DNA of 64,000 nucleotides from an uncultured Pseudomonadota bacterium (GTDB lineage Bacteria; Pseudomonadota; Gammaproteobacteria; CAJXQU01), in NCBI GenBank assembly GCA_913058255.1, contig CAJXQU010000005.1:62001-126000 (forward strand), in the 5' to 3' direction. Positions within the stretch are counted from its first letter, which is position 1; the number at the start of each line of letters is the position of its first letter. This document shows positions 39,670-45,860 of the stretch, piece by piece. The notes beneath the pieces were generated by a model that did no database searches, had not been told where the DNA came from, and saw nothing but the letters and a program-made list of their open reading frames with translations. The position numbers and the translations under genes were made by a program.

Positions 39670-40467
39670 GTGAACACAACTATTAGCAAGTTGGCTACCC
39701 GGCCCAAAAAATTGAAGCTCACATTACAGCTCGTGCAAACAGTATTAATTTCTCTAGCTCTGGTGTTAGCCTTTTATACTATGAACGTAACCGCAGCAGA
39801 ATCTGCGGAGCAAAGCGCGAATGACACAAAACCAAAAGCATTTGTTTATACAGAGCTGCAAATTTCTGTCTCATCTTTCAATGATATTCCTTGGCAAAAA
39901 GTCAACGACAACATCAAACAACAACCCGGTTTTATTAACAAAACATGGTTGTACGGTGTTGGGAATCATTCAGGCGGTGGATTTTATGCCTTCGATAGCA
40001 TCGAGAACGCACAGAAGTTTGTTACTGAATATTTTCCAGAGGAAGCAAAAGGATTTGGCGTAGCGCAAACTTCCCGCATATTTGATGCCGACGTAACTGA
40101 AGAAGCCAGCCGTGACATGAGCTCTGCACATTATATTGGTAATACAGAGAGAAAGCCGGGTGCATACGTCTATACCGAAGTTCAAGTACAAGTCGTCCCA
40201 TTTAACGAAGGGCCTTGGCGTGAAATTAATCCAACTCTTAAACAACAACCTGGCCTTCTATCGAAAACCTGGTTAAGCGGATTCAACACAGGCACGCCCG
40301 GAGGATTATACGCGTTCGACACAATAGAAAATGCCCAAAAATTCGTTCTGGAATATTACCCAACAGCAGCAAAATCATTTAATGCCGCCTTTTATACTCG
40401 GGTATTCGATGCCAATGCAACTGAAGCCGCCAGCGGCGCTATGAACTCTCCGTTCTACAGCAACTGA
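39670..40467 (+). CDS. Secreted protein with two tandem YdhR/ABM-like alpha-beta barrel domains
   Basis: A 265-residue protein with a signal peptide (about residues 1-42) and two homologous domains of about 95 residues. Each has AFVYTELQISVSSFNDIPW-type and GAYVYTEVQVQVVPFNEGPW-type strands, then QQPGxxxKTWL, GGGFYAFDSIENAQKFV and GGLYAFDTIENAQKFV. The fold looks like the dimeric alpha/beta barrel of YdhR or antibiotic-biosynthesis monooxygenases; the duplication would make a pseudo-dimer in one chain. It is governed by the divergent TetR gene. Enzymatic function is not demonstrated; the start is GTG 39670 with AGGAG upstream. Confidence 0.7.
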   Translation: MNTTISKLATRPKKLKLTLQLVQTVLISLALVLAFYTMNVTAAESAEQSANDTKPKAFVYTELQISVSSFNDIPWQKVNDNIKQQPGFINKTWLYGVGNHSGGGFYAFDSIENAQKFVTEYFPEEAKGFGVAQTSRIFDADVTEEASRDMSSAHYIGNTERKPGAYVYTEVQVQVVPFNEGPWREINPTLKQQPGLLSKTWLSGFNTGTPGGLYAFDTIENAQKFVLEYYPTAAKSFNAAFYTRVFDANATEAASGAMNSPFYSN

Positions 40468-40803: not shown

Positions 40804-43344
40804 ATGAAAAAAATATCCAAATACTTCATTATTATCGGTATCGCTCTATTTTTAGGGATATTCATCTACAATAAAAAACAAGTAGAGACTCTTCTGACCT
40901 CTACCGATCAGGCCTATGAGGAAATGTCTGCGGTAAACGATGCTCTGGCTATACTAGCGTCCATTAAGTACCAGATGGCAGAGTTCTATTTAGATACTGG
41001 CAAGTTCCCTGTCGACAATCTTGAACTGGGTATCGATCCACCGGATAAATTCGCGAGCAATCAAATTCAGGATCTTAAGGTTACTCAAAAGGGTGAAATA
41101 ATTGTCCACTTTAAACAGATGGTCAAACAAAAAGAAAACGTAACTCCTTCATTACGTTTCACCGCAGATAACACACTCGAAAATAGTGGGATTCTGCGCT
41201 GGAATTGTTTTGCCGAGCATATTTCGGATTCGGTTTTGAATGTACTGCCATTCTGTGGACAATATATTCCTGTTCAAAATTCTCCAGATCAAAATAATCA
41301 TTCTCAAGAACAACAGGTGGCGCAAGATCAGTCTTCTGAAGTTACCAATATCAACTCGGAGAAAATTAATAAACCAAGCCAAGGTTATCTTGCATGGGAT
41401 TTAGCCAAGCAGATTAGAAATGGTGAGGATGATTTGATCGAAAAAATGCTTGCTGATGGTGCAGATTTTAAAGGTGAGCCACTGTTTGCAGCTGTTGAGG
41501 CGAATCGTTTTGATCTCGTTCATCAATTCCTGAGCAATGGAGCTGATGCCAATAGCATTGATCACAATGGTAATTCTTTATTACAAAATGCAATTTACAA
41601 CTCAGATGCTTATCAACATGAAGATCTGGATTTTATCCGGCTATTACTAAATTCTGGTGCCAGCACAGCATACGTGTCTCCATCTAATCAAACGGCTCTA
41701 TTATCATTGCACATTCCCAGCCAACGTGAATACATCAAACCGGATGACAGCATTACCGAAGAAGAAAAGAACAAAAATAGTGTCGATCTACAACTCTCAT
41801 ATGAGATCGCAAAATTATTACTGAACCACGATGCAAAAATAACCGTTTCAAATGGCATGGGAAACTCACCACTAGCACTTGCTGTTTGGGCTGGTGCAGA
41901 CAATCATGTCAAACTATTCCTGCAACGTGGAGCAAGTGCCGATAGTTGGGATGGAAAACAAAAATATCTATTGGATATTGCTTTGAGGAAAGGCTATGCA
42001 AAAACGGCATTGCTTTTATTTAACAATGGCGCACTATTAGATCGGTCATCTAGAAAAGATAAAAAAGAGCGATTATTAATATTAGCATTACAACAAAAAG
42101 ATGAAGCCATCATCGACGAAATGATCACTGTGGGTGCGGATCCAGCAAAAAAGATCAGATTGTCAAATTTAGGTATTCTCAGCGCAATAAAAACAGCACT
42201 GATCAAACAGGATTGGAAAAATGCATTACGTTTTGTGAAGCAAGGAACGAAGTTGCCTCACCAGATCACATTAGATGATCCGAACTATGCCAAACAATGG
42301 CCTCAACATATAATAAGAAAAAACAAGATATCTCTATCAAGTATTAAATACATTCTTGAGATTGGTGGAAGTCAGCAACTACAGAAATTTATCCCACATC
42401 TTGATCAACTAAATGCATACAACATAGAAAGAGAAACCTTACTGCAATATGTCATAAATAATGAACACAAAGAACTCGTTTTACCTCTGATTAAAGCCGG
42501 AGCAAATACTGATGTAACTGATAAAGATAATCGTAGCTTACTTGAAATCAGTATTACTAATGATGATGAAGCTACCGCATTGATATTTTTAAAACATCAA
42601 ACCCTGCCCAAGAACGCTGATCACTTACGATCACTCTGGCAACTAGCATACGATCATGACATGAAGAAGATCAGTGATGAGATCGGCAAACAATTACAAA
42701 CTTATGATCCACCAGAAATTCCAAAAACAGTCGTTAAACCAGACCAGAAAAACATCACTCTTTGGCAACGATCTTGTGAGACAACTTCAGAAGGTTGGTT
42801 TGGGTTAGTCGCTGAAGGTGATCAAGAACAATTGATTGTTGGTACTCATTCGAAAACGATTCCTTACCCAGGATTCTGGAAACCTGTCGATGTTTACAAT
42901 GATATTCGCTTCAATTGGATCAACACGCATGAATTACAACTAAAGAATTTTGATAAAGATGCTGGATGGGAAGGTTTTAATACTTTCTATAATTGTGATC
43001 AAAAAGAACCCGGTATTGACCTAACTGGCAGTTGGCAAGCTTCAGATCTTAAAAAAGGAAAAACTATTATTACACTCCATCAAAATGGTCATGGACAGAT
43101 CACGACAGATGGTAAAGTTGTTGCGATATTGAATACGATAAAACCTGCATACCGTGGAGCAAAAGTAATATTTAATATGTGCGAACATGAAAGAGATATC
43201 GCTTTTTATATAAAATCAGATCAAACAACCGGCAACAGTTACCTTTATAAGGAAAAGAGAGTGCGTAAAAAGATAAAACTTCAACGGCTAGAAATTGATA
43301 ATTCCATAGCTAAAAATAGACATCAACAAATAGGCTGCCCGTAA
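40804..43344 (+). CDS. Pilin-like/ankyrin-repeat fusion protein
   Basis: An 846-residue protein. Residues 6-24 form an N-terminal membrane segment. Residues about 30-160 resemble the globular part of a type IV pilin: YLDTGKFPVDNLELGI, a WNC...LPFC cysteine pair near the end. A Gln-rich linker follows. From about residue 200 to 620 come ankyrin-type repeats (e.g. EPLFAAVEANRFDLVHQFL, NGNSLLQNAIYNS, GNSPLALAVWAG, DKDNRSLLEISI). The last 200 residues form a beta-rich domain with cysteines (WQRSCETTSEGW, FYNCDQ, FNMCEHERD). No prepilin cleavage motif is present, so it is likely a membrane-anchored periplasmic protein and not a true pilin. Function unknown; single gene in an accessory region. Confidence 0.7.
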   Translation: MKKISKYFIIIGIALFLGIFIYNKKQVETLLTSTDQAYEEMSAVNDALAILASIKYQMAEFYLDTGKFPVDNLELGIDPPDKFASNQIQDLKVTQKGEIIVHFKQMVKQKENVTPSLRFTADNTLENSGILRWNCFAEHISDSVLNVLPFCGQYIPVQNSPDQNNHSQEQQVAQDQSSEVTNINSEKINKPSQGYLAWDLAKQIRNGEDDLIEKMLADGADFKGEPLFAAVEANRFDLVHQFLSNGADANSIDHNGNSLLQNAIYNSDAYQHEDLDFIRLLLNSGASTAYVSPSNQTALLSLHIPSQREYIKPDDSITEEEKNKNSVDLQLSYEIAKLLLNHDAKITVSNGMGNSPLALAVWAGADNHVKLFLQRGASADSWDGKQKYLLDIALRKGYAKTALLLFNNGALLDRSSRKDKKERLLILALQQKDEAIIDEMITVGADPAKKIRLSNLGILSAIKTALIKQDWKNALRFVKQGTKLPHQITLDDPNYAKQWPQHIIRKNKISLSSIKYILEIGGSQQLQKFIPHLDQLNAYNIERETLLQYVINNEHKELVLPLIKAGANTDVTDKDNRSLLEISITNDDEATALIFLKHQTLPKNADHLRSLWQLAYDHDMKKISDEIGKQLQTYDPPEIPKTVVKPDQKNITLWQRSCETTSEGWFGLVAEGDQEQLIVGTHSKTIPYPGFWKPVDVYNDIRFNWINTHELQLKNFDKDAGWEGFNTFYNCDQKEPGIDLTGSWQASDLKKGKTIITLHQNGHGQITTDGKVVAILNTIKPAYRGAKVIFNMCEHERDIAFYIKSDQTTGNSYLYKEKRVRKKIKLQRLEIDNSIAKNRHQQIGCP

Positions 43345-43577
43345 GAATTCTTCCACAGAGCATCATTCCTGTACGTCTTTAACAGGCAGTCATATATTCA
43401 TAAAAAGATACATGAGTGCATGAGGTTTTTTTGCATTAAAATGTAGGTAAGGCATGATTTGTTCTCTCCTGAGTAAAATAAGATGTTAGAAACCTAATTT
43501 TATCAGTTGCTCAAGTTATGTTTTTTTTAAGTGGTGCTCTTTCAACTTGAATTCACTCGTTAAATTATGGCAACTTC

Positions 43578-43596
43578 AGTCTGATCTCATTGATTT
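43578..43596. repeat. REP-like motif, copy 1
   Basis: AGTCTGATCTCATTGATTT, matching 18 of 19 bases of the motif at 44806-44824. Located just downstream of the minus-strand gene ending at 43613. Together with 43994-44016 and 44796-44824 it forms a family associated with RAYT remnants. The rest of the gap 43345-43612 is AT-rich with no recognised gene. Confidence 0.6.
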
Positions 43597-43612
43597 GTTA
43601 TGTGAACTGCGC

Positions 43613-43951
43613 CTATCGGTTATCCAACTTGGCTAGTTTTCGAATATTAAATTTCAAAGTCAACACAGCCGTTAAAGGGATTATGAATAATTGAAGAAAC
43701 GAAGAAAAAAATAATGCCCAAGAAAATTGATATGGGAATTTAATTTCCTCTATGATTCCGTTGTCATACCAGTATGGGTCGAGGTATACCCATGTGATAC
43801 TTATTAAGTAAGTTGTTATATAGCCAAAAAGTAACATACCCCAAAAAATTTTTCGACTACCTGATTCTTCACTAGGCCTAAAATTAAAATAGATGAATGC
43901 AAATAGGGAAAAAATAAATCCAATTAGATATATTGAAATAATAAATTTCAT
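43613..43951 (-). CDS. Small membrane protein of unknown function
   Basis: A 112-residue protein with three hydrophobic segments (FIISIYLIGFIFSLFAFIYF, IFWGMLLFGYITTYLISITW and FSWALFFSSFLQLFIIPL). GAGGG precedes the ATG by 5 bases. No enzyme motif. Very AT-rich, like the neighbouring small genes, and lying among REP-like repeats; may be acquired DNA. Confidence 0.65.
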   Translation of the reverse strand: MKFIISIYLIGFIFSLFAFIYFNFRPSEESGSRKIFWGMLLFGYITTYLISITWVYLDPYWYDNGIIEEIKFPYQFSWALFFSSFLQLFIIPLTAVLTLKFNIRKLAKLDNR

Positions 43952-43993
43952 TTCGCCCTCAGAATTGTGATTTAACTATTAAATAATACACTC

Positions 43994-44016
43994 AGATCAG
44001 TCAGGCTCGATTGATT
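43994..44016. repeat. REP-like motif, copy 2 (inverted relative to copy 3)
   Basis: AGATCAG, then GCTCGATTGATT, with the minus strand reading AATCAATCGAGCCTGA, sharing AATCAATCGAG.CTGA with the copy at 44796-44824. It lies at the 3' side of RAYT remnant B. Confidence 0.5.
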
Positions 44017-44037
44017 CCAGTCGCACTGCCAACACAA

Positions 44038-44134
44038 AATATTCCTACGAATAATAACATGTTGTCGATGAACCAGTAATACGAAACGAGCTTGTCTAGC
44101 CATGGAAACACCTCATTAATAACTAAATGGCTAG
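44038..44134 (-). mobile_element. Remnant of a RAYT transposase start, copy B
   Basis: The minus strand reads MARQARFVLLVHRQHVIIRR from ATG at 44101-44103, the standard RAYT N terminus (MARxxRxVxPGxxxHVIxRG) with decay at the proline-glycine turn. A ribosome-binding GAGGTG precedes it. An inverted repeat CTAGCCAT (44096-44103) / ATGGCTAG (44127-44134) overlaps the start, at the same spacing as in copy A. The rest of the transposase is gone. Downstream 44135-44324 shows another stem CTTACAT/ATGTAAG near 44140-44180 and no gene. Confidence 0.65.
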
Positions 44135-44324
44135 CTTACTCTACCTTACATTTTTTATGTATCTTCTTATAGGATGTAAGAAGTAGTCTTAGATACTTTG
44201 AAAAGCTTCTTGAGTATAATAAACGAAGAAGAGGGAAGTTTTGATCGGATTCCACATCAAAGTTCACCTTCTTCAAAAATTCCATGGATCATGAAAAGGC
44301 ATTTATTCTTATCAAAAACAAACT

Positions 44325-44549
44325 CTAATTGTTCGGATTTTTATTATTGTTCTTTGAAACGATCAGAAAAACCAATTTAACGAATAAAAATAACCCCGTA
44401 ATAAAAGCAGTAATAAAACAAATTATGAACATGATCGCTTCAACACTTCCACCATTCGTATGCACTTCTCCGCTTACGATCATAGTTACAGAAAGTATAA
44501 ATAAAAACAGCGTAACTATAAAGCCAAAAAACTTAAAAAAAATCTTCAT
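44325..44549 (-). CDS. Small two-helix membrane protein
   Basis: A 74-residue protein with two hydrophobic helices (FFGFIVTLFLFILSVTMIVSG and FIICFITAFITGLFLFVKLVF). AAGGAATTAGC precedes the ATG at a suitable distance. It has an Asn/Lys-rich tail. Not recognised. Very AT-rich. Confidence 0.5.
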   Translation of the reverse strand: MKIFFKFFGFIVTLFLFILSVTMIVSGEVHTNGGSVEAIMFIICFITAFITGLFLFVKLVFLIVSKNNNKNPNN

Positions 44550-44795
44550 GCTAATTCCTTACTTATTTTAGATACGAAATAGGTATGAACTAAATCCTAA
44601 CCAGTTGATTTTTTTAATGATTTTATGTCAGCGAGATCTCAGCTGAAGGTTTCGAGTAATAAGTGGAGTTCACTTTTAGATTTTTAATGAATACCTCCCC
44701 CTTTACGGATGAGCCCCTCGTAGTAATCTCGCTTTATAACTACATTAATGTAAGCAAAGTAGGCTCAGGTCTTTGGTTCATGACTGGCGAACCTT

Positions 44796-44824
44796 AAATC
44801 AATCGAGTCTGATCTTATTGATTT
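44796..44824. repeat. REP-like motif, copy 3, with 8-bp inverted arms
   Basis: Arms AAATCAAT and ATTGATTT enclose a 13-base loop containing CGAGTCTGATCTT. This resembles the common RAYT-linked motif AATCAATCGAGTCTGACCCC known from other gammaproteobacteria (recalled, not checked). It overlaps the end of the broken gene and supplies its C-terminal codons. Confidence 0.65.
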
Positions 44825-45437
44825 CCTGCACTGAAAATCCATTCAGGAAGTTTTCAATCTCTGAATTGGCACTTACTGACTAAGTTTGCTCCTGTATATA
44901 CTATATACTGAGTTGAGCCAGATTTATCTGAGTAATAATACCCAAGATACTTAAAATGGATTCCTTGAATAGTACCTTCTAATTCTTGATAAATAACTTT
45001 ATTACCATTTACTATTCTATATTCTTGTTGTGTTATTTTTGCATCTGAATCAGATTTTTTTGCATTTTGAAGAGCTACTCTGGAAAGGTTTAACAAATCA
45101 GCTTCTATACCTTCAGTAACTGCTATTCCATATAGATCTCCTCCACTCTTTAATTGAAAGTCATAATCATCTTTTTTAAATGACCACTTCTTAGGATCAA
45201 TAAAGAATTTGGAGTTATTTAATTTACTTTATAAGAGAAAAAGTCGATAGCTTTCCTTTTGAAAAAAAAGTTCTTGTTTAGAGGGATTCCAGTGTTTTTA
45301 GTTATTGCTTTATTTTCATATTCCCAAGCTCCATTGGGTTTTAAAATAACGGTTTCACCTTCATCAGTTATGGCTTTTTGATTAGCGCTTACTGTAAAAG
45401 ATAAAATACAAATAAATAAAGAAAAATATTTAATCAT
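44799..45437 (-). pseudogene. Secreted protein gene broken by two frameshifts
   Basis: Three minus-strand segments make one gene. Segment 1 (45437-45219) encodes a signal peptide and ITDEGETVILKPNGAWEYEN, a repeat-type motif of many small exported proteins, ending FFSYKVN. Near 45220 the frame shifts by one base and continues NSKFFIDPKKWSFKKDDY through to SKCQF (segment 2, to 44854). A second shift at about 44857 restores EIENFLNGFSVQEI and ends NKIRLD. The joined protein is coherent, so this is a pseudogene, or two sequencing errors. The last residues come from a REP-like motif. Family not firmly named. Confidence 0.65.
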
Positions 45438-45860
45438 AAAAATTTTCCTATGGTGGTGTTGTTATACAAAATCTACTTTTTATCCTGCTATATTTCGTAT
45501 AGTAAGGTAAAAAGCAGAACGAATTAAATTAATGATTAGCATGATCAAGAGTGAACGATGTGGTTTCATATCGTGAAAATGCATGTTTATGAAACCGATC
45601 CCTTCTAATCAGTAACCCAAATCTTACGTGTCAGATAGACAAGAAGCAAGTTCACCATTGTCAGTTATCTTACTTAAGCATTTGAACTATTATGAAGGTG
45701 ATTATATGGAGCGAAACATTGCAGTGAGGCTTAGGTTTAAACTATTATTTTTATAGAGTTAAAGGGAAGGCGACTCTTGTTGTGTAATGTCAGAGGGGAA
45801 AAAATCTACTTGGACAGGGATAATTAAAAAAAATGATTTTCCCTGCTCAAAGTGAATGTT
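45438..45860. other. Gap with no recognised gene
   Basis: 423 AT-rich bases between the broken gene and the next minus-strand gene. A weak inverted repeat CAGGGA (45815-45820) / TCCCTG (45840-45845) lies downstream of the 45861-46325 gene and might end its transcript. A 16-codon frame at 45706 (MERNIAVRLR...) has a possible ribosome site but no further support. Confidence 0.4.

Follow-up and report, generated by a model that had tools for sequence, protein, structure and literature searches.

A leaderless type IV pilin domain fused to an ankyrin array, conserved in Granulosicoccaceae and sporadic elsewhere

Introduction

Type IV pilins are known as the subunits of filaments, and modular pilins as subunits that bear extra domains. 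Modular pilins, among them PilB and PilC of Streptococcus sanguinis, are presented in a study of PilB (PMC8179133) as proteins in which an N-terminal IPR012902 pilin bears grafted modules, amounting to more than 1,200 proteins in 264 architectures; ankyrin is not mentioned in the main text of that paper. Ankyrin-repeat proteins have been described in the periplasm: AnkB of Pseudomonas aeruginosa promotes the activity of the catalase KatB (work cited in PMC10294975), and in Bdellovibrio two DD-endopeptidases are inhibited by Bd3460 (PMC4686830). Periplasmic ankyrins are therefore less unusual than was assumed when the gene described here was first annotated from its DNA (the original prediction). 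That annotation also knew of no family with a pilin domain followed by ankyrins, which holds for the open-access literature that was searched, although the order itself is not confined to the genome in which it was noticed.

The gene lies in a 64,000-nucleotide stretch of DNA from an uncultured Pseudomonadota bacterium, referred to as the window. It represents a real and so far undescribed kind of pilin-derived anchor protein, since the same arrangement is kept across a whole bacterial genus. With the type IVa major pilins (PilE/PilA, PF00114) the fusion shares the alpha1-C helix, the sheet, a W-x-C motif and a C-terminal cysteine pair, but it lacks the prepilin leader, Glu5 and the Pro22 motif, and its ankyrins make it three to six times longer. 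Like the modular pilins, as PMC8179133 portrays them, it has a functional module grafted behind an N-terminal pilin module; those proteins are filament subunits that retain a class III signal peptide, whereas in the fusion family the extra domain is present and, as read from the sequence, the IPR012902 motif (the class III signal peptide) is lacking. Because this defining peptide is missing, the family was not filed with the modular pilins. An ankyrin array is what the fusion has in common with the periplasmic ankyrin proteins. AnkB acts on one client, KatB, is encoded with katB and has no pilin domain reported in the citing source, whereas the window gene has no adjoining partner gene; Bd3460 is exported to the periplasm, but it is small (23 kDa), carries a signal peptide, acts as an endopeptidase inhibitor and has no pilin part. 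Other pilin fusions of the same class (a 730-aa lipoprotein-pilin, an M48 peptidase-pilin and a zinc-ribbon-pilin) also lack an N-terminal prepilin leader, but they carry the pilin at the C-terminus and have no ankyrins.

Results

The protein is encoded by a single unbroken reading frame, from the ATG at 40804 to the stop codon ending at 43344 (846 aa), in which both PF00114 and ankyrin models were matched, bearing out the predicted pilin-ankyrin fusion. Its features, all on the plus strand, are as follows.

40804..43344, plus strand: entire gene, 846 aa, with transmembrane helix, leaderless pilin, ankyrin array and orphan C-terminal domain (ORF listing, Pfam, no in-frame upstream start)
40822..40869, plus strand: lone hydrophobic membrane helix, residues ~7-22 (sequence, alignment with 12 family members)
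40870..40908, plus strand: juxtamembrane extension, residues ~23-35 (alignment A4)
40909..41256, plus strand: pilin domain with alpha1-C, sheet and C-terminal disulfide region, residues ~36-151 (PF00114, PilE profile match)
41206..41208, plus strand: Cys135, first of the pilin pair, in the W-x-C motif (25/25 members)
41254..41256, plus strand: Cys151, second of the pilin pair (24/25 members, full alignment)
41257..41391, plus strand: polar linker rich in Gln/Ser/Asn, residues ~152-196 (sequence, very low pLDDT)
41392..42705, plus strand: ankyrin array of ~12-13 helix pairs, residues 197-634, free of cysteine (Ank families, model, Cys count)
42721..43341, plus strand: orphan C-terminal domain, residues ~640-846, with Cys 658, 731, 793 and 845 (no database match; Cys positions)

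The membrane helix occupies the place of the pilin alpha1-N, without a Gly-1 cleavage site and without Glu5, and the juxtamembrane extension is longer in the window protein than in the other members of alignment A4. Pfam assigned residues 42-138 to PF00114 (Pilin) with 31.3 bits against a cut-off of 22 (E 4e-7) when the whole protein was searched, and the N-terminal piece alone also scored over the curated cut-off (E 6.5e-8). A 13-row profile of the N-terminal region matched Neisseria PilE in the PDB in register, with profile position 6 on chain residue 6 (E 2.4e-14). The AlphaFold model of residues 1-161 was weak (pLDDT 54); in a PDB shape search with this model the single match at E < 0.001 was a Neisseria pilin (probability 1.00), and seven matches reached probability >=0.89, every one of them a Neisseria type IV pilin. 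In the full-length model, which is poor (pLDDT 47), a helix over residues 2-65 is followed by a small sheet and then by the ankyrin helix pairs. These models support the domain assignments without proving them alone. Family, profile and fold searches agree that the N-terminal third is a pilin globular domain with its cysteine pair (C135/C151), as had been proposed, and none of the three placed the first 160 residues in a non-pilin family.

A globular pilin domain (PF00114) and a C-terminal cysteine pair are two marks of a filament subunit that the protein retains; two others expected of a functional subunit, a class III signal peptide with a Gly-1 cleavage site and Glu at mature position 5, are absent. 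The N-terminus of the window protein (MKKISKYFIIIGIALFLGIFIYNKKQVETLL) contains neither the Gly-1 motif nor Glu5, and none of 13 aligned members has an acidic residue in the hydrophobic segment. The ORF listing gives the first start after a stop codon, so the ATG at 40804 is the most upstream possible start in its frame and a longer, leader-bearing product of the window gene cannot exist. The same genome encodes a leader-bearing PilA of the ordinary kind (MKKVQQGFTLIELM...), adjoining a sensor kinase and a response regulator, which places the contrast between leader-bearing and leaderless pilins within one organism.

The position at which a leader would end could be read from the Granulosicoccaceae members, whose proteins begin VKLLIIVLAM...GLYVKAALLSEA. 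Taking as reference the mature PilA from the genome that contains the window (F1 T2 L3 I4 E5...) and counting the Granulosicoccaceae protein from its own start, Gly14, Tyr27, Lys29, Ala31 and Glu35 match position for position without gaps; the start codon therefore coincides with mature residue 1, the site where PilD would cut a prepilin. At least seven members (L114, L115, L116, L117, L122, L124 and L131) have no in-frame ATG, GTG or TTG upstream, and their start is thus forced, provided that only those codons are used. Relative to Granulosicoccaceae, the window protein has 11 and the protein of G016, from another gammaproteobacterial family, 4 additional residues ahead of the corresponding tyrosine, as counted visually in the alignment. 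The in-register PilE match given above agrees independently with this placement of the start. On the simplest reading of these sequences, exactly the leader was lost from a pilin gene; Glu5 has disappeared as well. The prepilin leader had rightly been called absent, and in two other lineages the homologues start before the pilin part, not after it. A mis-called start or a chance fusion was ruled out by the forced starts, the ORF boundaries and the selection data given below.

Since leader and Glu5 are both absent, a normal filament subunit is unlikely, and the window protein probably does not assemble into pili. A genuine modular minor pilin, assembled unprocessed and displaying its ankyrins on the filament, would fit the wide occurrence of modular pilins with grafted domains recorded in PMC8179133. 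We regard this as very improbable, given that the class III signal peptide that defines pilins and Glu5 are lacking in the window protein and the checked homologues and that the Granulosicoccaceae start codon falls on mature residue 1.

The ankyrin region was recognized from about residue 205 by Ank_2 (E 2.3e-18) and four further Pfam ankyrin models, and the full-length AlphaFold model has 12-13 helix pairs across residues 197-634; ankyrin-type repeats had been predicted correctly, and the count of about ten was slightly low. We also considered a secreted effector-type ankyrin protein, for which there is a generic ankyrin similarity to Dot/Icm effector models. These matches cover the ankyrin repeats only and lie far below the curated cut-offs (52 bits against a cut-off of 600), a transmembrane anchor with a pilin head is unsuited to such a role, and the gene is conserved in 22 of the 27 genomes of one genus, which makes an effector exceedingly improbable. 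Kinship with Dot/Icm or anti-phage models was rejected as generic ankyrin similarity.

Cysteine positions were used as a guide to the compartment. The window protein has six cysteines, two in the pilin pair and four in the C-terminal domain, and its 506-residue linker and ankyrin region has none, against 5.8 expected from the cysteine frequency in the window's own cytoplasmic proteins (P about 0.003). Across the 25 members of the full alignment, whose Granulosicoccaceae sequences are not independent of one another, the first pilin cysteine is kept in all and the second in all but one (its column is invariant in the 13-row alignment), and four extra cysteines in the middle ankyrin region occur all together in 21 members and are jointly missing in the rest. 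This pattern fits an oxidizing compartment. Because the pilin cysteine pairs are kept and the ankyrin part of the window protein is cysteine-free, the ankyrins most likely face the periplasm; an uncleaved N-terminal anchor, followed by a disulfide-bearing pilin head and then by the ankyrins, likewise argues for an inner-membrane protein with periplasmic ankyrins. The positive-inside bias at the N-terminus is weak, which counts against this anchored, periplasmic orientation. Elsewhere in the window's genus, G001 encodes a pilin-free protein of 687 aa (L003:1375-3438) that combines Sel1-like repeats and numerous ankyrin repeats with what looks like a signal sequence, probably a second periplasmic ankyrin protein of the genus.

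The order of transmembrane helix, leaderless pilin and ankyrins recurs in G016, where a search of relative genomes placed a pilin-like stretch in a 581-aa frame; the protein itself (578 aa; Pilin E 4.6e-11, Ank_2 E 3e-61) can be aligned to the window protein over both parts. A two-row profile run against 369 genomes of the class recovered G353 and G258, both encoding the transmembrane helix, pilin and ankyrins. A scan of a contig collection with the single protein yielded no relative, and a scan of the same collection with the four-row profile A2 yielded four Granulosicoccus loci. In the family of G353, Granulosicoccaceae, the long protein was present in 23 of 48 genomes (22 in genus g216, which has 27, and one in g275). 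No added ankyrin fusion was recognized in a phylum-wide sample of 399 genomes, for which the cut-off was stricter and the candidates per genome were limited. Of the three members in the window's genus, two (G001 and G002) yielded no fusion when searched: the sole pilin-family match of G001 is an ordinary-sized pilin, and G002 has no pilin-family match. The fusion would therefore be dispensable in these two, although the neighbor gene used as a synteny marker matched only copies of 38% identity. Uniqueness to one genome was rejected, as the same order occurs in two other lineages; the family is conserved in Granulosicoccaceae and sporadic elsewhere.

Purifying selection was evident over the whole protein in the close pairs measured. 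Among the close pairs of L115, L116 and L117, dN was 0.04-0.05 and dS about 0.9-1.0 (dN/dS about 0.04-0.05), and dN/dS was about 0.06 for L122 and L125. The transmembrane helix, pilin and both ankyrin blocks are conserved to a roughly equal degree: mean pairwise identity is 0.61 in the pilin head and 0.59-0.61 in the two ankyrin blocks, as against 0.36 in the middle region. These values bear on the possibility that the pilin part is a mere membrane anchor and spacer and that the ankyrins (in the window protein together with the C-terminal domain) do all the work. Related pilin domains have been reused in unrelated fusions of the class (lipoproteins, M48-like peptidases and zinc-ribbon proteins), as would be expected of a generic module, but a head as conserved as the ankyrins and far more so than the middle region leaves this explanation rather doubtful. 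In a tree of 105 pilin domains the three fusion lineages came out close together, with weak support; the best tree holding them together exceeded the free quick tree by 15 log units and was not rejected (AU p 0.755). One origin of the fusion is compatible with these sequences rather than proven by them, since the tree was built from 132 columns with long branches.

Several further pilin fusions were met during these searches. Proteins of ~700-750 aa with a leaderless C-terminal pilin domain, several of them with a lipoprotein-like N-terminus, are encoded at L057:2760-4997 (in the window's own genome, G000, contig C2) and at L058-L062, at least six copies across different families of the class; their large N-terminal part had no Pfam match where scanned, and they look like an undescribed, widespread pilin fusion. 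The proteins at L098:3590-4870 and L168:697-2004 are M48-type-peptidase-like by reading and end in a membrane helix and a pilin domain. Those at L103:1855-2787 and L104:1534-2457 (~310 aa) have a zinc-ribbon-like stretch, a transmembrane helix and a C-terminal pilin domain, with a purD-like gene (by reading) adjoining L104. The 964-aa protein at L165:198-3092 (G611) combines a transmembrane segment around residue 100 with a long stretch of low complexity and a C-terminus that is pilin-like and leaderless.

The C-terminal domain of the window protein (~640-846) had no match in Pfam, NCBIfam, the PDB or the sequence search of the 369 genomes of the class, and is an extra feature of this member, found nowhere else. 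Its description as beta-rich was not confirmed, as there is no family, PDB or class-wide match and no confident model, and with four cysteines in 208 aa it is not really cysteine-rich. Its DLTGSW...GHGQI stretch is reminiscent of lipocalin-like domains.

The window, G016 and Granulosicoccaceae loci have no neighbor gene or operon in common, and no client gene lies next door of the kind seen with AnkB; the neighbors differ between lineages. The Granulosicoccaceae gene adjoins an insulinase-like M16 peptidase and a carbohydrate-binding-looking gene (read from sequence), both missing at the window and G016 loci. Upstream of the window gene, 39670-40467 encodes a secreted-looking protein with two ydhR-like domains (PF08803), and the ~2.5 kb on its 3' side (43345-45860) hold small ORFs only, one of them for a 112-aa membrane protein (43613-43951, minus strand).

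A link to pili was weighed through the secretin PilQ. Each of the 46 genomes tested, whether or not it carries the fusion, gave a PilQ-family match, which in 43 exceeded the curated cut-off; among the carriers, all but one, an incomplete genome, were above it. As PilQ is also present in non-carriers, its co-occurrence cannot tie the fusion protein to pili, and it was set aside as functional evidence. The protein could nonetheless regulate type IV pili or act as a decoy for them: at the inner membrane its pilin head would touch pilins, minor pilins or the alignment complex, while its ankyrins would link to a periplasmic partner. The pilin head, including its cysteine pair and W-x-C motif, is as strongly constrained as the ankyrins, every carrier tested has a PilQ-family secretin match, and in the window's genome the ordinary PilA stands beside a sensor-kinase/response-regulator pair. 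Against this, PilQ in non-carriers of the same families makes that match uninformative, the gene does not lie near pilus genes, and the PilA packing features Glu5 and Pro22 are lost, so that we judge a pilus regulator or decoy unlikely, though not negligible. A related and doubtful suggestion is that the leaderless pilin has become an inner-membrane receptor, whose head would monitor or restrain the type IV pilus apparatus and whose ankyrins would signal to a periplasmic enzyme.

Discussion

On balance, and with modest confidence, we favor a periplasmic ankyrin scaffold that is tethered to the inner membrane, derives from a retired type IV pilin and is predicted to bind a client. The N-terminal helix would serve as an uncleaved signal anchor (N-in, C-out, a topology we infer); with no prepilin leader PilD would make no cut, with no Glu5 the usual docking into a growing filament would fail, and the protein, uncut and undocked, would stay in the inner membrane. 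The pilin alpha1-C helix and disulfide-bonded head may serve as a rigid stalk and perhaps also provide a docking surface, from which the ankyrin array would reach into the periplasm, bind a protein client and hold or inhibit it near the membrane. A membrane-tethered scaffold is also favored because periplasmic ankyrins with one or few clients are known.

The fusion family would accordingly offer membrane-anchored periplasmic ankyrins in which client binding can be tested. If the receptor suggestion were true, it would define a new class of pilus-linked periplasmic regulators. A pilin fold under strong selection after its assembly signals have gone provides a clean natural experiment on the pilin head outside the filament.
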